NCBI GenBank assembly: GCA_023381255.1
Contig: JAMCTX010000002.1
Coordinates: 54,742 to 118,741 of the forward strand
Reading direction: 5' to 3'
Length of the DNA: 64,000 bases
Source: Nitrososphaerota archaeon
GTDB taxonomy: Archaea > Thermoproteota > Nitrososphaeria > Conexivisphaerales > UBA164
The notes below the pieces were generated by a model that worked only from the letters and a program-made list of their open reading frames with translations, searched no databases and was not told the DNA's origin. Positions 1,428 to 34,278 of the stretch are shown in pieces. The position numbers were made by a program, and so were the translations under genes. The stretch's first letter is position 1. Each line of letters begins with the position of its first letter.

Positions 1428-2412
1428 CTATCCTTCCATCCTTCATCATTTTTAAAACTTCATTGGCTTCAGCCACTTTAAACCTTGTGGTTTTAATTTT
1501 TATTTTACCCTTTGATGCCAGGTACAAAACTTCATTCATGTCGCTGCGAGGCCCAATCATGGACCCCCTGACCTTAATCTCCTTTACAAACCTGAAATCG
1601 TGAATATCCCCGAAGACGCCCATCACAAACGTTCCCCTCTTTTTTACAAGCCTGAGGGAAGCGTCAATTGCTTTTTGCGATGGCGAAAACACTATCACAG
1701 AACCTGCACTATCATGGTATTTTTCAAGATTATCATAGTTCCTGTTTGTCATTATTACATCGTCAGCCCCCATTTCCTTTGCCAGCTGGGCATGTTCATC
1801 ACTTGTAGACACCGCGATCACGCGGGCACCAAACAGTTTGGAAGTCTGTATTGCTACATGCCCCACTCCCCCTATACCAACCACATAGACCGTGCTTTCT
1901 GGGCCAAGGGCTGCCATCTTTGAGGCCCTGTAAGCCGTTACGCCAGGGCAGAACAGAGGCGCATCCGACTGCAAGTCTATCCCTTCCGGTATGCTGTACA
2001 CGTAGTTTGCCTTTGCAAGCACGTATTCTGCATAGCCTCCGTCAACGGTTTCGCCAGTTATCTGCGCGCTGTCACATAAATGCTCATTGCCTGTAAGGCA
2101 GTGTTCACACCTTCCGCAGCTGTTCCATAGTGGTGACAAGCCCACGGGCTGGCCAGCCTTCAGGTTATTCACCCCTTCCCCAAGCTCAGCAACTTTGCCT
2201 ATTATTTCATGCCCGGGAATTATTGGCAATTTAGCGGGCACCCCGTACTGAACCCAGTCGCCCTCTATCATATGAAGATTTGAATGGCAGACGCCGGTTG
2301 ATATGATCTTTACCAGGATTTCGCCGGTTGAAGGTTTGGGGGTAGGATAATCTTCGTATTTTAGCGGATTAGATTCAATTTTTCCAACATCATGCAGGAC
2401 CATCGCTTTCAT
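1402..2412 (-). CDS. Zinc-dependent alcohol dehydrogenase
   Basis: GVCHSNLHMIEGDW, GHEIIGKV, CGRCEHCLTGNEHLC structural Zn motif, GIGGVGHVAIQ. Confidence 0.93.
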   Translation of the reverse strand: MKAMVLHDVGKIESNPLKYEDYPTPKPSTGEILVKIISTGVCHSNLHMIEGDWVQYGVPAKLPIIPGHEIIGKVAELGEGVNNLKAGQPVGLSPLWNSCGRCEHCLTGNEHLCDSAQITGETVDGGYAEYVLAKANYVYSIPEGIDLQSDAPLFCPGVTAYRASKMAALGPESTVYVVGIGGVGHVAIQTSKLFGARVIAVSTSDEHAQLAKEMGADDVIMTNRNYDNLEKYHDSAGSVIVFSPSQKAIDASLRLVKKRGTFVMGVFGDIHDFRFVKEIKVRGSMIGPRSDMNEVLYLASKGKIKIKTTRFKVAEANEVLKMMKDGRIVGRAVLSP

Positions 2413-2461
2413 GCATATTATTTGATGCCATTAATTTAAAAAGCTATATGAAGATGTTAAA

Positions 2462-2572
2462 CCTGTGCACAGGCGGTTTTCATACCAAAAATTTATCGCA
2501 AACCAGGCATTCACGTTGCGCACAACCTGAAATGTGCACTCGGTCATTATGTTTATTTAGATGGTATGAAAA
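2462..2572. promoter_or_regulatory. Putative operator region between zinc ADH and PadR genes
   Basis: Perfect 12-bp palindrome CCTGTGCACAGG (2462-2473) and 11-bp inverted repeat TTTTCATACCA (2477-2487)/TGGTATGAAAA (2562-2572). Confidence 0.5.
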
Positions 2573-2904
2573 TAATATATAAAATGACAAAAGCGAAAAA
2601 TCCAAAGGGCCTTCTTGAAGCCTGCGCGCTTTATCTTTCATCCAAGTATCCATTTACAGGGAAAGATCTAATGGACTTCACAAGTAAAATCACCGCCGGC
2701 GCCTGGAAACCAAGTCCGGGTTCTGTCTACCCTCTGCTGGAAAGGCTTAAGATGCGGGGGTTAATTTATTCGGTCTCTTCTGAAAGATATATAATTACGG
2801 ACAGCGGCAAACAGGAACTGAATAACCTGGTATTGCAGCTTAAAAATATCAAAGGCATGATAGATGCAGTACTGGATAATATCAAAACTGACCAAACAAA
2901 ATAA
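2566..2904 (+). CDS. PadR family transcriptional regulator
   Basis: PSPGSVYPLLERLKMRGLIY...YIITDSGKQEL winged-helix pattern. Confidence 0.85.
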   Translation: MKIIYKMTKAKNPKGLLEACALYLSSKYPFTGKDLMDFTSKITAGAWKPSPGSVYPLLERLKMRGLIYSVSSERYIITDSGKQELNNLVLQLKNIKGMIDAVLDNIKTDQTK

Positions 2905-3101
2905 GGCGCAAGTTAAACGCGACTCAGACAAATGCCTTCATATCACTGATCACCATAACTCTGAATCATCACAGTCGCTGACCGGTATATTATAACCAAA
3001 CTTAATTAATTTACCTGAGTCACAACACGGAAAAATCATACCAAACAGGCCTCCTATACATCAACCAATTCAGTTGGTAAATTGAAACATAAATATTTAT
3101 T

Positions 3102-25657: not shown

Positions 25658-25735
25658 ATCTGGCTGAAGCGTTGTTTCTAAACACCCAAGCATTATGGGG
25701 TTGGCCTGAAGGGTGCCCTCTCAGGCCGTTAGCAA
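25658..25735 (+). ncRNA. Candidate small structured RNA or tandem hairpin element
   Basis: Adjacent hairpins 25681-25702 and 25703-25727 (GGCCTGA...TCAGGCC) about 25-30 nt downstream of TATA-like TAATAAATATTTAT, in a divergent intergenic gap. Confidence 0.3.
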
Positions 25736-25767
25736 AATTTAAATACAAAAACAATAATATAATTTCG

Positions 25768-27189
25768 ATGCAAAAAAGAAAAAGCATAGGTAAAATTGCG
25801 ATTGCATTGATTGTCGTAATAATTGTCATAATAGCTGGCGCAGGCGGATACTACTATTATTTGAGCACCATTCCGCCAAAGCCAACTCCAACACCTACTC
25901 CATCCGTGACCACGTTAAATGTTGTTGTGGTTGGTGGATGGAACCAGCAAAATGTTGAAACAGCTGCTAATGATTATATGGCGCTTCATCCCAATGTGAA
26001 AATAAACCTAATAATAGCCACATTTTCAAGTTATCTAGAGAAAGAAGAAGTTGCTGAATCACAGGCTAACGCATCATCATATGATATATTTACGTGGAGT
26101 CCCACGTCTTCTGGCCCTATAGCACCATATGTCACACCTCTCAATTCGTTTATATCAGCGGATAACTATAACCTCTCCAACTTCGCTTCAGGCATGCTGG
26201 CTTCGGGAGGCGAATACTATAATTTAACTTCAAAAACAACCACTGTTATAGGCTTTCCAATCGATACCAGCATATACAATCTATACTATTTGAAGAGCAT
26301 ATTTGACAACGCCACCCTTGCATCAGAATTTCAATCAATTTATCATGTTCCGTTTAATCCCAACGAATGGACAAACTGGACAGAAGTGATATGGGCAGAC
26401 CAGTTCCTCACCTCCAATCACGTCACCCAATACGGGATGCTTATAGATGACAATCCAACGCACGGCATGATTGACGCGTTTCCAGCAATATTTTACTGGT
26501 GGTACCGCTCCAATTCCACACTCAACGGCGGGACGTCCAGCGGCCTTCCGGGATATGGCATCCTGTTCAATACAGCCGGCCAGCCTGACTTCGCAAATGC
26601 GGCAGGCGCAGCTGCATTGGAAACATATAAGGCACTGATACAGTACGGCGATCCATCTCCAAATATCGAAATAATAGATTACAGTACACTGGAATCTGTG
26701 TTTGAAACTGGACATGCCGCGATGGATCTGGGGTGGACTGAATACGGAACCACATTTAACAGCACCACAACTTCACCAGCAATTGGAGGAAATGTGGGTG
26801 TTGCGCTGTTGCCTGGAGGCTACAGCGAAGCAGGAGGAAGCATTATGGGAATAGCCAAGTACGCCTCAAACAAAACAGCCGCTTTCCAGTTCCTAGAATT
26901 TCTTACCACAAACAATGAAGCCATAAAGGCATATTATGCCGGCGGCTTTGTACCAACTGAACTCAGTGCGCTTAAGATCCTGGAAACAAATGCTACCATA
27001 TCCGGATTTATTCAAACAGAGTACCAGGGCACATTGGTTGCAAATGCAAATCCACCGCTTCTGTCGATATCTTCAACAGTCTTGGTTCCTGAATTCAATT
27101 ATGCTATAAACAACTATTTGACAGGAGTTACGACAAATCCATTATCAGCATTACAGACAGCCGCAACTGAATGGTCACATGCAGTGTAG
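25768..27189 (+). CDS. ABC transporter extracellular (sugar-type) substrate-binding protein
   Basis: N-terminal TM then Pro/Thr linker PPKPTPTPTPSVTT; SBP family 1 features; upstream of permease. Confidence 0.9.
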   Translation: MQKRKSIGKIAIALIVVIIVIIAGAGGYYYYLSTIPPKPTPTPTPSVTTLNVVVVGGWNQQNVETAANDYMALHPNVKINLIIATFSSYLEKEEVAESQANASSYDIFTWSPTSSGPIAPYVTPLNSFISADNYNLSNFASGMLASGGEYYNLTSKTTTVIGFPIDTSIYNLYYLKSIFDNATLASEFQSIYHVPFNPNEWTNWTEVIWADQFLTSNHVTQYGMLIDDNPTHGMIDAFPAIFYWWYRSNSTLNGGTSSGLPGYGILFNTAGQPDFANAAGAAALETYKALIQYGDPSPNIEIIDYSTLESVFETGHAAMDLGWTEYGTTFNSTTTSPAIGGNVGVALLPGGYSEAGGSIMGIAKYASNKTAAFQFLEFLTTNNEAIKAYYAGGFVPTELSALKILETNATISGFIQTEYQGTLVANANPPLLSISSTVLVPEFNYAINNYLTGVTTNPLSALQTAATEWSHAV

Positions 27190-27201
27190 AGATGATAATC
27201 A

Positions 27202-28986
27202 GTGAATACCAGATGGGCTGACAAGTACGCTGCAATACTGTTGGCCCTTCCCCTTATTTTTTATTTATTGATATTTACCGCTTATCCGATGGTTGAATCT
27301 GTCATTTTGAGCTTTTCAAAAGTTGGATTGCTGTATGAATTTAAAGGATTGGTTGGGTTACAAAACTACCAAACACTAATTTCAAACGTATTTTTCAGGC
27401 AAACTTTCATAAATACTTTGATTTTCGTGTTCGCTGTTGTTGTAATTGACATGCTGTCAGGACTGATCCTGGCATTGAGCCTGGAAAGAATAAGCAGGGG
27501 AAAATCAGTAATCACAACAATTCTAATGTCGCCCATGATCTTACCAGCCGTGGTGGTTGGGGCAATATGGGAGGTAATACTTGCCCCATATATAGGCCCG
27601 GTGGACTATCTGCTGAGCAGAATAGGATTTGGCAACATAGGATGGCTAGCTAATCCCAGGCTTGCCCTGCCAAGCCTGATAGTAATTTCAGTGTGGCAAA
27701 GCATCCCGTTTATTTTCCTGTTGATACTGGCTGGAGTGCAATCAATACCCCAGCAATTAAAGGAAGCAGCTAAAATTGACGGGCTATCAACGTCCCAGAT
27801 TTTCAGTGAAATAACAATGCCGATGATACTTCCGGCATTTGCAGTTTCATTTTTAATGGCGTTGATCAACTCATTTAGGGTTTTTGACATTATATACGTG
27901 ATTGATCAGGGCGGCTTCAATCCGGCAAATTCGCTCTTGACTTACTTTTCGTATGAATTCGCGTTCATCCCCGGCTTTCAGGGCGTAGCCATGGCCGCAA
28001 TTATAATCATAACTTTAATAGCCACAGTCGTGGCCATGTTTTTTATAAACAGGGTGGGGTTAAGGGAACGCCTGGGGCTGAAGGAGGCATCAAACAGTGT
28101 AAAAAGGTTCAAACTGGGAATACGCTTGCCTTCGTTCAATATACCCCCTGGCATTTCAAAAATTCTTGCCTATTTCATACTGATAGTAGCATCAATCATA
28201 TCATTCTTCCCGTTTCTGTGGGCAATTATTACAAGCTTAAACACAACAGGGATAGTGACCACGCTTTTGCCGCCAGTTACAGACATAGGATTGGACAATT
28301 TTGTCAAGGCAATATATCAGGGAGCAGGCTATCTGGCGAGCAGCCTGGTGATAGCTCCGGTTGTGGCAGGCATTACAATATTGATAGCGGCACCGGCATC
28401 TTATGCTATAGCAAGATACAAGCTGGGCGGCACAAAATTGCTTTCCTGGAACCTTTACATTTACGCCATTCCTTCAATAGTTTTCCTGATTCCGCTGTAC
28501 CTGCTTGTGGGCAGGCTTGGGCTTTTGAATACATGGTGGGCGCTGATGCTGATATATCCGATTTTTACGATACCCCTTGCAACGTGGATCCTTGTCGGAT
28601 TTTACAGCGATGTGCCCAAGGAGATTGATGAAGCCGCGCTCGTAGACGGGAAAAGCAAACTGGGGGCCTTCTTTAGCATAATACTTCCAATTGTAAAGCC
28701 GGCCCTTGCAGTGGTTGCATTTTTCTCAATACTGGCAAGCTACACAGAATTCATGTTTGCTTTAACAATTGGGGAAACGCCTTACCTATTTAATTTTCCA
28801 CCGCGCGGGACTGAAACTGCAACCGTGTTTATAGCAATTGGGGTTTCCTATGGCGCCGGGCATCCAATCAATTACGCCCTGCTGGCTGCAGCTGGCCTCA
28901 TTGTGTCCATTCCGGTGATAATCATATCGGCTGTTTTGCAAAAATACATAGTAAAGGGCCTCGGATTTGGAACAATAAAAGGCTGA
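27202..28986 (+). CDS. Fused MalF-MalG-type ABC sugar permease (two permease domains in one ORF)
   Basis: Two EAA loops in one 594-aa ORF: QLKEAAKIDGLSTSQIFSEITMPMILPA and EIDEAALVDGKSKLGAFFSIILPIVKPA. Confidence 0.92.
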   Translation: MNTRWADKYAAILLALPLIFYLLIFTAYPMVESVILSFSKVGLLYEFKGLVGLQNYQTLISNVFFRQTFINTLIFVFAVVVIDMLSGLILALSLERISRGKSVITTILMSPMILPAVVVGAIWEVILAPYIGPVDYLLSRIGFGNIGWLANPRLALPSLIVISVWQSIPFIFLLILAGVQSIPQQLKEAAKIDGLSTSQIFSEITMPMILPAFAVSFLMALINSFRVFDIIYVIDQGGFNPANSLLTYFSYEFAFIPGFQGVAMAAIIIITLIATVVAMFFINRVGLRERLGLKEASNSVKRFKLGIRLPSFNIPPGISKILAYFILIVASIISFFPFLWAIITSLNTTGIVTTLLPPVTDIGLDNFVKAIYQGAGYLASSLVIAPVVAGITILIAAPASYAIARYKLGGTKLLSWNLYIYAIPSIVFLIPLYLLVGRLGLLNTWWALMLIYPIFTIPLATWILVGFYSDVPKEIDEAALVDGKSKLGAFFSIILPIVKPALAVVAFFSILASYTEFMFALTIGETPYLFNFPPRGTETATVFIAIGVSYGAGHPINYALLAAAGLIVSIPVIIISAVLQKYIVKGLGFGTIKG

Positions 28987-29131: not shown

Positions 29132-30181
29132 TCACTTAACCGGCCATATTCTTTTATTATCCAGAAACACCAACAGCTTGCCAGGGTCAAATGCTATATA
29201 TATATCGTCATTCATGGATATGCTGAGTTTGCCGAATATTCTGGCCTTGTACAACTCATTTCCTGATTTTAGCGTTATTATGTATTCATGGCCCAGCGGT
29301 TCTACCACCATTACTTTTGCCGGAATGCCATCCTTTGCAATTGAAATGTCTTCAGGCCTTATTCCCACAGCTACGTGCCCATTAAACTGCTCGCTTAATC
29401 CAATATGAATATTTGTGTTTAAGAATTTCAGGTTGCCCCCGGATAGCTCACCGCTGAATAAGTTTATTGGCGGGCTTCCAAGAAAACTTGCCACAAATGT
29501 ATTTTTTGGATAAAAGTATACATCTTCGGGGCCGCTCAGCTGCTGTATTATGCCGTCTGAAATCAGCGCGATCCTGTCAGCCATTGCCATTGCCTCGGCC
29601 TGGTCATGCGTTACATAAATCGTGGTAACGCCAAGCTCCTTTTGCAGCGACTTCAAAAATGACCTGGCGGATACGCGCAGCTTCGCATCCAGATTGGAAA
29701 GGGGTTCGTCCAGCAAGAAGGCCTGCGGATGCCTTACAAGCGCCCTGGCCAGGGCAACCCTCTGCTGCTGCCCGCCACTCAATTGCCTTGGATATCTTTC
29801 CAGCAATGATGATATTTCCAGCGTTTTTGATATTTCCTCTATCCGTGACTTTATATCAGCCCGATCAATTTTCCGTGCCTTCAACGGCATTTCTATGTTT
29901 TCATAAACGGTCTTATGGGGGTACAGGGCGTAGTTCTGGAATACCATTGCTATATTTCTTTCTCTTGGTGTTAAATCATCCACCAATTTATCCCCTATCC
30001 AGACATGGCCCTTATCCTGGCGTTCGAGCCCCGCGACTATCCTCAACGCAGTTGTTTTGCCGGACCCCGAGGGGCCAAGCAAAATCATAAACTCCCCGTC
30101 GTTTATCTCTAGATCTATTCCCTTAAGCACCTGCGTGCTGCCGAAATTTTTCCATACATTTTCCAGTCTAACGGATGGCAA
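29132..30181 (-). CDS. ABC transporter ATPase, MalK/UgpC type
   Basis: LLGPSGSGKTTALRIVAG, LSGGQQQRVALARAL, DEPLSNLDAKLR, TOBE-like C-terminus. Confidence 0.95.
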   Translation of the reverse strand: MPSVRLENVWKNFGSTQVLKGIDLEINDGEFMILLGPSGSGKTTALRIVAGLERQDKGHVWIGDKLVDDLTPRERNIAMVFQNYALYPHKTVYENIEMPLKARKIDRADIKSRIEEISKTLEISSLLERYPRQLSGGQQQRVALARALVRHPQAFLLDEPLSNLDAKLRVSARSFLKSLQKELGVTTIYVTHDQAEAMAMADRIALISDGIIQQLSGPEDVYFYPKNTFVASFLGSPPINLFSGELSGGNLKFLNTNIHIGLSEQFNGHVAVGIRPEDISIAKDGIPAKVMVVEPLGHEYIITLKSGNELYKARIFGKLSISMNDDIYIAFDPGKLLVFLDNKRIWPVK

Positions 30182-30231: not shown

Positions 30232-31569
30232 TTACATGGAAAGCAGCAGGCCCGCTATTCTTTTCCCTGAATCGGTAAGCTCATAGAGCACAATGTTGCG
30301 GCCTTTCACCGTGAAATTTTCACCCTTTATAAGCCCATCCCTTTTCAATTCGCTGAGGCTTATGTAGACAGCCGGCAGGGTATCCTTTATTTCAAACTCC
30401 CTTAATTTCTTCCATATTTCATAGCCATGCGACCTTTTGCTGTACAGGATTTCCAGTATTGCCTTTTTTGTTTTCCCGAGCTGAACTTCGGCAACGTTCC
30501 GCTTTGGCCTTATGTCAATCAGGGCGCCAATTGCCACAGGGTCTTTCAGGCCGGTGCCGGTCAATATATAAAGAATGTTTGCTTTCTGGTCAATTTTGCT
30601 TTCATCAGAAGACCTGTAAAGGCCTGCCAGGGCCACAGCCGCGGAGGGTTCTGCAAACAGGCCCTCCGATTTCGCGAGCATAGCCGTAGCCTTCAATATT
30701 TCATCATCTTCAACTTCTACCATAAATCCGTCGGTCTCATTCAGGGCCTTTTCGGCGGCCTTCAGGTTTATTTTTTGCGCAAACAGGTCATCCGCCACCG
30801 CGCTCTGATTTTTAACCCTGACGCCCACGAGCCTTGGCATTTCGCCCATCAGGCCGGCTTCCTTTAAATCAACAAGTCCCGAATATATCATTGACAGCGC
30901 CCCGCCCTCTCCCACGCTTACGAATATATAATCCGGCAGTTTAGTTGTCTGTTCAAATATTTCATACGCTATTGTCTTAAGTCCCGACAAAAATATCGTG
31001 TCGCTTTCGCCAGTGGTGTAAAATCCCTCAAGCGTCCGCTGGGATTCGCTGACGGCATCCTGCAGGCTGTCATAAAAATTTACAGATGCGCCATAGCACA
31101 TTGTCTGGTAGAGCTTTCCAGTTATCAGCTTTCTTGTTGCATATACGGAGCAGGGGATCCCTGCCTTTGCAGAATAAGCTGACAGCGAAGCCCCCAGGTT
31201 GCCGGAAGAAAAGCACTTTATGCCCTTGTATTTGCTGGAAATGGCGTAACTGATGGCAACCGAGGAACCCCTGTCCAGGAATGACCCGGTCGGGTTAACT
31301 GACTCGTTTTTTATCATCAGAGAACCGGCCTTTAAATCGTCCCTTATCTTCTCGGAATAGATTAACGGCGTGCTTCCCTCACCCAGGCTGACAATCCTGT
31401 CAACCGGGGGGAGGAGGTTCCTGTAATTCCATATTCCATTGGCCCTCATTGCCGTGGCTTTTATTTTTTTCAATTCATATTTGAGCGGATAATAGACAGT
31501 AAGGTTGCCGCAGGCGGAACACCGGCCGCCGTTTTCCTGGACGTGGCCGCAGACATAGCACTTGAACAT
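30232..31569 (-). CDS. Threonine-synthase-like PLP-fold protein lacking the catalytic Lys, fused to C-terminal PadR-like wHTH
   Basis: N-terminal zinc ribbon CYVCGH...CSACGN; NPTGSFLDRG (canonical NPTGSFKDRG); SVGEGGAL; C-terminal KKAILEILYSKRSHGYEIWKKL...AVYISLSELKRDGLIK...YELTDSGKRI. Confidence 0.85.
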   Translation of the reverse strand: MFKCYVCGHVQENGGRCSACGNLTVYYPLKYELKKIKATAMRANGIWNYRNLLPPVDRIVSLGEGSTPLIYSEKIRDDLKAGSLMIKNESVNPTGSFLDRGSSVAISYAISSKYKGIKCFSSGNLGASLSAYSAKAGIPCSVYATRKLITGKLYQTMCYGASVNFYDSLQDAVSESQRTLEGFYTTGESDTIFLSGLKTIAYEIFEQTTKLPDYIFVSVGEGGALSMIYSGLVDLKEAGLMGEMPRLVGVRVKNQSAVADDLFAQKINLKAAEKALNETDGFMVEVEDDEILKATAMLAKSEGLFAEPSAAVALAGLYRSSDESKIDQKANILYILTGTGLKDPVAIGALIDIRPKRNVAEVQLGKTKKAILEILYSKRSHGYEIWKKLREFEIKDTLPAVYISLSELKRDGLIKGENFTVKGRNIVLYELTDSGKRIAGLLLSM

Positions 31570-31588
31570 ATTAATTTAATTTATAGAT

Positions 31589-31611
31589 AAACCAATATTT
31601 AAATATGGTTT
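31589..31611. promoter_or_regulatory. AT-rich dyad AAACCA-ATATTTAAATA-TGGTTT in divergent promoter
   Basis: Read from sequence; sits between starts at 31569 (-) and 31628 (+). Confidence 0.5.
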
Positions 31612-31627: not shown

Positions 31628-33121
31628 ATGTTCAAAAGGAACGCATCGGGGCTTGTGAAGGCGCTGAAAATGAGGGACGTGTTTATTTACAATTCCCTCA
31701 CCATCTCGCTGTTTTCGATGATGTGGTTCCTGCTTTTTATCTTCCAGCCGGTTGCCTTCACAGGCGGGAGCATTGTGCTTGGAACGGCGCTCCTGGCAAT
31801 AGTTGCGGTGCCTTTCTTTATAACATATTCTTACCTGAGCAGGGCTTACCCTCTGGCAGGCGGCGACTACATATTCCAGAGCAGGACCATGCACCCGGTT
31901 GTGGGCTTTGTATTTACGTTTACTGGATGGGTTTTATGGCAGCTTTTCTTCATAGCCTGGTTCGGGTATTATATTGTTGACGCGCTGCTGCTGCCCTACC
32001 TGTATTTTATGTCAAAACTTACCGGGTCATGGGTGTTTTTAAGCATGTACGGGGTCATGAACTCCAGGTACTTCGTGTTTTTTGCGACGGCGATTCTGCT
32101 TGCAATCGCGTTCCTGATATCCATGAGGGGGTTGAGATTCTACGTTAAAGTCCAGTACCTGATATTCATCCTGATGGTGGCAGGCGGCGTTTCAGCGCTT
32201 GCCATTCTATTTGGGCACGATTCCTATCACGTCATCAGCGCAGCAGCTTCCCTGGGTTCCCTGGGCAGCATCAACTGGCTGAACACCATCGGCACGTGGT
32301 CCCTGAGCTGGGGCGCTGTCGGCTATGGCATGTGGTCTGTCTTGAATAACGAGGAAATATCTGGGTCGGAAAGCCGCAAAAAGTATTCAGCTGCAATGGT
32401 AGGAGCCGTGCTGCTCAACGTGTTTTACGTCGTGGCTGTATGGGTTGGGTTAAAGGCTGCTGTGGGGTATGCCCAGCTAAGCCAGCTGTCCCAGCTGTGG
32501 TACAGCGGCAGGCTGACCGGCATGCTTGCAACGGTGGGCGCGCCATATTATACAGTGCTGATGGCATTTTTGAACCCGAATCCCATACTCTACACAGTGC
32601 TGATAGTTGGCGCCGCTGTGTCGATGTTCCAGGTCATGATTGCAATCATGATAGGTTCCAGCAGAATTGTCCTTGCGCAATCGCTGGACGGCATTTTGCC
32701 GATAAAGCTAGCCACAGTGCAGGACAGGAGCCACAGCCCGATCTATTCACTGGCGTTTGACCTCTTCATTTCAATGATATGGCTTGTGCTGATAGTTTTC
32801 ATGCCATCCATAGGCCCGTTCTTTGTATCAGTGGTCTTCGCCACGCAGGTTACCTGGATGTTTTCCATGATTTCAGGGATGATAAAGGCTAAAAGGGAAA
32901 GGAACCCCGGCATACTGATAGCTTCAGCCATTGGTTTTCTGCTAAATGCCGTAATAGCCGCTTTCTACATAATTTACCCCCAGCTGGGGTTCATGTCCAT
33001 CACCTCAATGCTCGTGGTATCGGGTTTGTTTGCCGTTGCGTTCATATATTTTGCGGCCAGAAACCTGTACCTGAAGAGGAAAACAGGGTTCACGATCAAA
33101 GACAGAGTAAAGGAATTATGA
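31628..33121 (+). CDS. APC family amino acid permease
   Basis: Multi-TM; YLSRAYPLAGGDYIFQSRTMHPVVGFVFTF. Confidence 0.85.
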   Translation: MFKRNASGLVKALKMRDVFIYNSLTISLFSMMWFLLFIFQPVAFTGGSIVLGTALLAIVAVPFFITYSYLSRAYPLAGGDYIFQSRTMHPVVGFVFTFTGWVLWQLFFIAWFGYYIVDALLLPYLYFMSKLTGSWVFLSMYGVMNSRYFVFFATAILLAIAFLISMRGLRFYVKVQYLIFILMVAGGVSALAILFGHDSYHVISAAASLGSLGSINWLNTIGTWSLSWGAVGYGMWSVLNNEEISGSESRKKYSAAMVGAVLLNVFYVVAVWVGLKAAVGYAQLSQLSQLWYSGRLTGMLATVGAPYYTVLMAFLNPNPILYTVLIVGAAVSMFQVMIAIMIGSSRIVLAQSLDGILPIKLATVQDRSHSPIYSLAFDLFISMIWLVLIVFMPSIGPFFVSVVFATQVTWMFSMISGMIKAKRERNPGILIASAIGFLLNAVIAAFYIIYPQLGFMSITSMLVVSGLFAVAFIYFAARNLYLKRKTGFTIKDRVKEL

Positions 33122-33153: not shown

Positions 33154-34278
33154 ATGGTGATATTGACCCCGGGCCCCACTGAAATACCGAACGAGGTTCT
33201 GGCGTCGATGCTAAAAAGCGTCAACCCGGATCTGGACCAGGGGTTCTTCAACCTCTACAATGAACTTGCGGGAAGCATAAAGAAGATGATCAATCATGAC
33301 GGCAGCATTTATGTGATGAGCGGTGAGGGGATGCTTGGGCTTGAAGCGGCAATTGCCAATACGGTGAAAAGGGACGACAAAGTCCTGTCAATATCAAACG
33401 GCGTTTTCGGCGAATCGTTCGCTGATCTTGCGAGGGGTTATGGAGCCCAGGTTACGACGGTGAACGGGCCTTACGATGAGCCTGTCGATGCAAGCAAAAT
33501 GCCGGACCTGAGGAATTACAGGGCAGTTACGTTTGTTTATGTTGAGACGCCTGCAGGGCTGATAAATCCCATAGGGGATGTGGCAAAAGTTGTAAAGCAA
33601 AGCGACGCGCTTTTCATCGTGGACGCCGTTTCTGCGGTAGGGGGGGTGCCTGTCGACTGCAAAAGCCTTGGGGTCGATATATGCCTGATGGCAAGCCAGA
33701 AGGCCTTCAGTTCAACGCCGGGGCTGGCCATCGTGGCAGTGAGCGACAGGGCGAAGGCAGAAATGAAAAGGGTCAACTACGGGGGGTATTACATGAACAT
33801 AAACAAGTGGGACGAAAACCTGGGAAAGGGCATGTTTCCATATACGCCGTCAGCCAATGACATACTGGCCCTGAAAACCGCAATTGACATGATATACGCT
33901 GAAGGGCTTGAAAGCGTCTACAGGAGGCATGAAGAAAGCAGGAATGCAACAATCAGCGCACTGAAATCGATGGGCATTGTGCCGTTTGTAAAAGACATAA
34001 AATATGCAGCACCGACAGTTACCGCATTTTACTCGCCCCTTGACCCAATGTTGCTTCTTGATTTTACCTGGAAAAAGCTGGGCGTAATGCTTGCGGGGTC
34101 TTGGGGGCCGCTTGCCGGCAAGGTGATGCGAATAGGCCACATGGGGTATACGGCAAGAAAGGACTTTGTAATACAGGCAATAGCGGCCCTGGCCGCTGCA
34201 ATGAACAACTACGGGTCCAGGGTTGACATCGAATCGGCTGTCAGGGCTGCGAACAGGGAGTTTTCATCTCCTGCCTGA
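33154..34278 (+). CDS. Class V aminotransferase, alanine-glyoxylate transaminase-like
   Basis: LTPGPTEIPNEVL; VDAVSAVGGVPVD; MASQKAFSSTPGL (PLP Lys present). Confidence 0.9.
   Translation: MVILTPGPTEIPNEVLASMLKSVNPDLDQGFFNLYNELAGSIKKMINHDGSIYVMSGEGMLGLEAAIANTVKRDDKVLSISNGVFGESFADLARGYGAQVTTVNGPYDEPVDASKMPDLRNYRAVTFVYVETPAGLINPIGDVAKVVKQSDALFIVDAVSAVGGVPVDCKSLGVDICLMASQKAFSSTPGLAIVAVSDRAKAEMKRVNYGGYYMNINKWDENLGKGMFPYTPSANDILALKTAIDMIYAEGLESVYRRHEESRNATISALKSMGIVPFVKDIKYAAPTVTAFYSPLDPMLLLDFTWKKLGVMLAGSWGPLAGKVMRIGHMGYTARKDFVIQAIAALAAAMNNYGSRVDIESAVRAANREFSSPA

Follow-up and report, generated by a model that had tools for sequence, protein, structure and literature searches.

A lysine-less threonine-synthase-like protein fused to a PadR-type winged helix as a candidate sensor-regulator of vitamin B6 supply in Archaea

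The closest described system to the protein reported here is PdxR, a GntR-type regulator of the MocR group. PdxR controls vitamin B6 synthesis, salvage or transport, the apo-form of the bacterial protein activates pdxST, and MocR factors have been reported absent from Archaea (PMC5320631). In a survey of the B6 pathway in Bacteria and Archaea the transporters and alternative kinases were missing and regulators lay outside the coverage (PMC9997740), and B6 regulation and uptake in Archaea are essentially unmapped (PMC5320631, PMC9997740). A literature search, which was not exhaustive, gave no description of an archaeal PdxR or of the fusion analyzed here. The architecture of this fusion, a PALP domain followed by a PadR domain, is already held in databases as PRK05638 “threonine synthase”, and its meaning alone is new. 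Here we describe one such gene in a window of 64,000 nucleotides, i.e. the whole stretch of DNA that was analysed, from a Nitrososphaerota archaeon (contig JAMCTX010000002.1), together with its relatives. We read its product as a one-component transcriptional regulator of vitamin B6 supply with a Lys-less fold-type-II sensor of B6 vitamers and give this reading a probability of about 0.75, the binding of ligand and of DNA being predicted from comparative evidence.

The features of the locus are collected in Table 1. The preliminary description of the regulator gene had the range right and gave no strand; the gene lies on the minus strand and the plus-strand reading of the same interval contains many stops. 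Pfam places a PALP domain at residues 60–338 (E=9e-55) and a PadR domain (PF03551) at residues 371–437, with 38.6 bits against a cut-off of 27; the PadR gathering score is also exceeded by the relatives L010, L044, L104 and L287, and the short L148 falls below it. An AlphaFold model, for which 53 window- and locus-derived sequences served as input, has a mean pLDDT of 89 and presents a winged helix after the PALP fold, with helices at 366–377, 382–392 and 398–410, the wing at 414–431 and a last helix at 433–444. The top PDB matches of this model in Foldseek are threonine synthases, several of them with PLP, with a TM-score of about 0.8 (0.83) on the target. The motif reads NPTGSF-Leu98-DRG and its leucine aligns to Lys61 of Thermus thermophilus threonine synthase (1UIM). 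Both the leucine in place of the lysine of NPTGSFKDRG and the winged helix in the same ORF, as they had been described earlier from the sequence, were thus recovered by ORF reading and alignment and by Pfam and AlphaFold, respectively. The protein stays below two database thresholds, i.e. NCBIfam PRK05638 (NF004170; 270 bits over 2–438 of 442, cut-off 421) and the thrC equivalog (135 bits, cut-off 167).

Table 1. Positions of the regulator gene, its divergent operon and the putative control elements in the window
Feature	Position	Strand	Basis and remarks
Regulator gene: Lys-less threonine-synthase-like PALP with C-terminal PadR winged helix, 445 aa	30232..31569	-	ORF (ATG 31569, stop 30232), Pfam, AlphaFold and Foldseek
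C-terminal winged helix, PadR-like	30240..30474	-	About residues 366–443; Pfam PadR, predicted helices and wing
CTG codon, Leu98 replacing the Schiff-base lysine	31276..31278	-	Alignment with 1UIM; coordinate from ORF start
Candidate operator GTTTATCTATAAATT, core TTTATCTATAAA	31578..31592	-	About 10 bp upstream of regulator ATG; only genomic copy
ATATTTAAATAT palindrome, probable TATA element of both divergent promoters	31595..31606	.	Sequence; function predicted
APC-family permease	31628..33121	+	Pfam AA_permease_2, 3e-11; divergent from regulator
PPAT-like class V aminotransferase	33154..34278	+	Second gene of divergent operon; NF046070 and 2z9u

Relatives were drawn from 61 genomes near that of the window, 400 genomes of its class and 149 of another order, and further ones from 399 genomes of its phylum via NCBIfam PRK05638; a scan of named genomes reached Bathyarchaeota, Thor-, Loki- and Heimdallarchaeota, Brockarchaeota, Desulfurococcales and MAGs of Thermococcaceae. 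A chance coupling of lysine loss with fusion is excluded by two counts. After removal of duplicates, 151 of the 152 distinct PALP-PadR fusions with a readable key residue are without the Schiff-base lysine (R 70, L 27, I 23, V 10, M 8, T 5, F 3, Y 3, N 1, S 1, K 1), whereas lysine is present in 62 of 63 unfused relatives; the one without it (L180) corresponds to a fusion of the L178 type that has been truncated. Leucine was found also in a congeneric genome (G001, 84% identity) and in every full-length fused relative of the window's family, and the more distant fusions have Ile, Val, Phe, Met, Thr, Arg, Tyr, Asn or Ser. A sequencing or single-base error or a local pseudogene is ruled out by the kept leucine and by the other non-Lys residues of the relatives. 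The preliminary description had considered a single-base error unlikely, in agreement with the leucine of G001 and of the family, and had left to be checked the conservation of leucine and fusion in related genomes and the existence of a Lys-containing paralogue; both leucine and fusion are kept, the fusion in diverse Archaea, and the same genome has a paralogue with the lysine (L031, NPTGSFKDRGMT).

Another 40 regions were checked for the rule that all fusions are without the lysine, and one exception was found. This is L287 (4007–5419), the only fusion with lysine (codon AAG), which is about 50–55% identical to Arg-type relatives; because it sits among these, its lysine looks like a one-base change from arginine and is possibly a reversion. 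In a first tree the Lys-type enzymes are set apart by a single supported branch and the branching within the fused group is poorly resolved; a larger tree needs one extra change, which we put down to the truncated L180 having been scored as unfused. On the first topology the most economical history has one loss of the lysine together with one fusion, and judging from these sequences the lysine was probably lost and the PadR domain gained once, early in Archaea, from a threonine-synthase ancestor.

The PLP pocket was compared column by column between the fusions and their Lys-type relatives, using the T. thermophilus numbering. The residues T57, D62, R63 and G86 are kept in 100% of the fusions, N87 in 96%, G187 in 96%, G189 in 100%, E287 in 98%, T317 in 98% and G320-L321-K322 in 97–98%, and these columns presumably include the contacts to the PLP ring and phosphate in threonine synthase. 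The lysine is the only pocket residue which is systematically missing, and the other PLP-contact positions are as conserved in the fusions as in the enzymes. A cofactor, or a related compound, that is still bound but not as an internal aldimine would be expected to leave such a pattern. One caution concerns the window protein itself, whose phosphate loop has a glutamate (GEGG) that occurs in 18% of the fusions and may count against a PLP sensor. The well conserved remainder of the active site, the name threonine synthase in databases and the lysine of L287 would also suit a protein which is still an enzyme, i.e. a threonine synthase or another PLP enzyme working without the usual lysine, with a winged helix that gives only feedback on its own operon. 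We regard this as hardly credible, because fold-type-II catalysis depends on the Schiff-base lysine, whose place in the fusions is taken by a freely varying residue (R, L, I, V, M, T, F, Y, N, S), because the window genome has a Lys-type paralogue and because the neighbours differ from the genes of threonine synthesis. The first 30 PRK05638 matches that were read have Arg in 28, Met in one and Ser in one, the lysine of L287 being an exception read later; PRK05638, which among NCBIfam profiles fits the fusions best, is the Lys-less fused family, therefore its database name is probably wrong.

The neighbouring genes were clustered over 110 fused loci and three recurrent partners were obtained. 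The first is an ECF S component (PF07155), which occurs in 50 of the loci, either on the regulator's strand and downstream of it or divergent, and its only PDB homologue is 4hzu_S, which we take to be HmpT/PdxU2. HmpT was originally named for HMP, and its bound substrate was identified by mass spectrometry as pyridoxamine (PMC4860826). The second, in 25 loci, is an AIR-synthase-like protein of the HypE/ThiL type, a candidate for an archaeal B6 kinase, whose best NCBIfam matches are hypE and then thiL, both far below cut-off. The third is a divergent pdxS (PRK04180, 463 bits), at position -1 in nine loci of several phyla, with pdxT (PLP_synth_Pdx2, 221 bits) at -2 in eight. As a control, at least one of ECF S, AIR-synthase-like, pdxS or pdxT was searched within 1.6 kb, and with near-duplicates included such neighbours were present at 82 of 137 fused loci and at none of the 49 loci of Lys-type relatives; therefore these neighbours track the Lys-less fusions and not the fold.

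A regulator of thiamine or HMP supply could be read from the same neighbourhoods if the ECF S component carried hydroxymethylpyrimidine and the AIR-synthase-like neighbour were a thiamine-phosphate kinase, as the first name of HmpT (PMC4860826) and the thiL score would suggest. This is very improbable, since the AIR-synthase-like protein scores higher with hypE than with thiL and reaches neither cut-off by far, the pdxST and transaminase-like neighbours are B6 genes, HmpT yielded pyridoxamine (PMC4860826) and the sensor domain has a PLP fold.

Other regularities of gene order were recorded in these loci. The AIR-synthase-like gene (L058:8205-9230:+ and homologues) is often at +2 of Arg-type regulators, and in many Bathyarchaeota loci it follows the ECF S component. 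A RIO2-type kinase gene stands at +1 on the same strand after the fused gene in some genomes of the class Nitrososphaeria (L136, L140, L141, L144), and in some Arg-type genomes a Lys-type threonine synthase gene lies near the fused gene on the opposite strand (L162, L163, L168, L171, L271, L273, L277, L278).

In the window the regulator is separated by 58 bp from a divergent permease, a candidate transporter of B6 vitamers as regards its presumed substrate. The aminotransferase has NF046070 (pyridoxamine-pyruvate transaminase) as its best NCBIfam model, at 246 bits and so far short of the cut-off of 600, and 2z9u as its best PDB match; the title of this record is aspartate aminotransferase, and we take it to be the pyridoxamine-pyruvate aminotransferase of M. 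loti. The GE and IGHMG segments of 2z9u are retained and one Arg is not, and on this sequence evidence the protein is termed PPAT-like only. The pair of permease and aminotransferase is kept in each of the eight family loci whose flanks reach far enough. No pdxS was detected in the window genome, which is 85% complete so that this is not proof of absence, and pdxS was present in one of 11 family genomes searched. These data fit an organism that imports pyridoxamine, the presumed transport substrate, and makes pyridoxal from it, both steps being switched by the regulator. Elsewhere in the window, a 594-aa ORF (27202–28986) resembles two sugar-type ABC-transporter permeases fused end to end and clusters with a solute-binding protein (25672–27189) and an ATPase (29132–30181, minus strand).

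The upstream regions were analyzed for common motifs. Non-Arg members of the family have a perfect 12-bp palindrome, CCTATATATAGG, mostly 2–30 bp upstream of the regulator start and directly after a TATA box (ATATATAAG). With at most one mismatch it occurs in 22 of 113 fused upstream regions, where 0.05 are expected by shuffling, and upstream of other genes in the same loci in 3 of 563 cases; among the 113 fused upstream regions it is absent from those of Arg-type members. When whole genomes were searched, 11 had the exact palindrome once, at the regulator; the one copy found in G192 precedes, by about 50 bp, an ECF S gene which is unlinked to the regulator. The Arg-type members of Thermococcus have neither the palindrome nor evident B6 neighbours; as Arg-type promoters are without the palindrome and the Thermococcus ones also without these neighbours, the ligand or the targets may differ between subgroups. 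One Thorarchaeote (L229) has a second copy at 1501–1512, 269 bp upstream of the ORF of a TrpB-like PLP enzyme (1770–3011), possibly an extra member of the regulon.

In the lineage of the window the positional equivalent of this palindrome is GTTTATMTATAAATT, which in the window is the candidate operator at 31578–31592 on the minus strand. Elements of this 15-mer class are found exactly once per genome in G000, G001, G004, G006 and G009 and always at the permease-transaminase promoter. Since related promoters share sequence by descent, these five sites are not five independent events. In G001, G006 and G009 the permease with its site is on a different contig from the regulator; for G001 a rearrangement probably split the two, because the adjoining region resembles a mobile element. 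The probable TATA element precedes the permease ATG by about 27 bp and the regulator ATG by about 32 bp, and the candidate operator adjoins this region, as would be expected of a repressor site. Another candidate operator, AAACCA-N11-TGGTTT around the TATA element, was dropped as its arms are not kept in G001.

The permease and the extra palindrome bear also on what is sensed. APC permeases are usually amino-acid carriers, the protein descends from threonine synthase, a Lys-type threonine synthase adjoins the fusion in the Arg-type loci L162, L163, L168 and L171, and the extra palindrome of the Thorarchaeote lies near a TrpB-like gene; by these signs the ligand of the pocket might be threonine, some other amino acid or an adduct of PLP with an amino acid, and the protein might control amino-acid uptake through the APC permease as well as transamination. 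We consider this unlikely, because the recurrent neighbours are B6 genes and not those of the threonine pathway, the permease is always paired with the pyridoxamine-pyruvate-transaminase-like gene, and pdxST is divergent from the regulator in several phyla.

A dead enzyme with a DNA-binding tail and a position at the switch of B6 genes is therefore probably an archaeal sensor-regulator of vitamin B6. In the mechanism that we propose, a B6 vitamer, of which PLP is the likeliest, would be bound in the pocket, reversibly because no internal aldimine can form without the lysine, and the state of the ligand would set the affinity of the winged helix for the palindromic operator beside the TATA box, in a region common with the B6 genes. 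In a PLP-replete cell the holo-protein would obstruct TBP/TFB or RNA polymerase both at its own promoter and at the divergent one of the B6 genes, the targets being the APC permease and the pyridoxamine-pyruvate-transaminase-like enzyme in the window organism and pdxST or the HmpT/PdxU2-like ECF S component in others. The control could be of either sign, with the holo-form repressing (PLP as corepressor) or the apo-form activating, and the operator position favours repression. What the comparisons show directly is the sequence with its domains, the joint occurrence of lysine loss and fusion, the kept pocket, the neighbourhoods and the palindromes; from these we infer which ligand is sensed, that DNA is bound, and that the control is repression, with its sign. 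The earlier proposal of a catalytically dead fold-type-II enzyme acting with its PadR domain as a sensor-regulator gains support from the coupling of lysine loss with fusion, the kept pocket, the AlphaFold match and the B6-linked neighbours and palindromes, with ligand and DNA binding as predictions; of its signal, “amino-acid or PLP”, the PLP side is favoured and a B6 vitamer is made likelier by the neighbourhoods than an unspecified amino acid.

The wider proposition, that PadR-fused Lys-less fold-type-II pseudoenzymes are across the Archaea the equivalent of PdxR, in that they control pdxST and B6 uptake of ECF and APC type and need no Schiff base to sense a B6 vitamer, we hold with moderate confidence. 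If it is true, the family supplies at once a regulator, the operator that goes with it and candidate genes for transport and salvage, corrects the name threonine synthase in many archaeal genomes, and exposes the PF07155 ECF S components and the operon of APC permease and PPAT-like enzyme as unrecognised archaeal B6 parts, the AIR-synthase-like neighbour being perhaps a B6 kinase. It would also show how, over deep time, the loss of one residue and a single domain fusion coupled with it turned an enzyme into a sensor, and transcription factors with a PLP fold would have arisen independently a second time.

Among known systems, threonine synthase (PDB 1UIM, 6NMX, 2ZSJ) has the fold and most PLP-pocket residues in common with the regulator, which differs by the absent Schiff-base lysine, the added DNA-binding domain and the B6-gene context; judged as EC 4.2.3.1, the window protein has the PALP domain, has no lysine in PTGSFKDRG and scores below the equivalog cut-offs. 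PRK05638 has the same architecture and aligns with it over the full length, but the name of that model implies catalysis, whereas the window protein is below its cut-off and the comparative evidence favours a regulator. The PadR family (PF03551) shares the winged helix, above the Pfam cut-off, and a palindrome at the promoter, whose conservation is an indirect sign of specific DNA binding, and differs by the sensor domain of roughly 350 residues in PLP fold which precedes the winged helix in the regulator. PdxR likewise has a winged helix fused to the fold of a PLP enzyme and a gene divergent from pdxST, with operators in the shared intergenic region (PMC5320631); the divergent pdxST is found in part of the archaeal family, which is associated with B6 genes as PdxR is. 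PdxR, however, joins a GntR helix at its N-terminus to a fold-type-I aminotransferase domain, and the archaeal protein joins a fold-type-II domain without the PLP lysine to a C-terminal PadR-like helix, so that it has neither defining domain of MocR/PdxR, in line with the earlier suggestion of a design analogous to MocR and independent of it. The best reading of these sequences is that the archaeal regulator works like PdxR and is not homologous to it.
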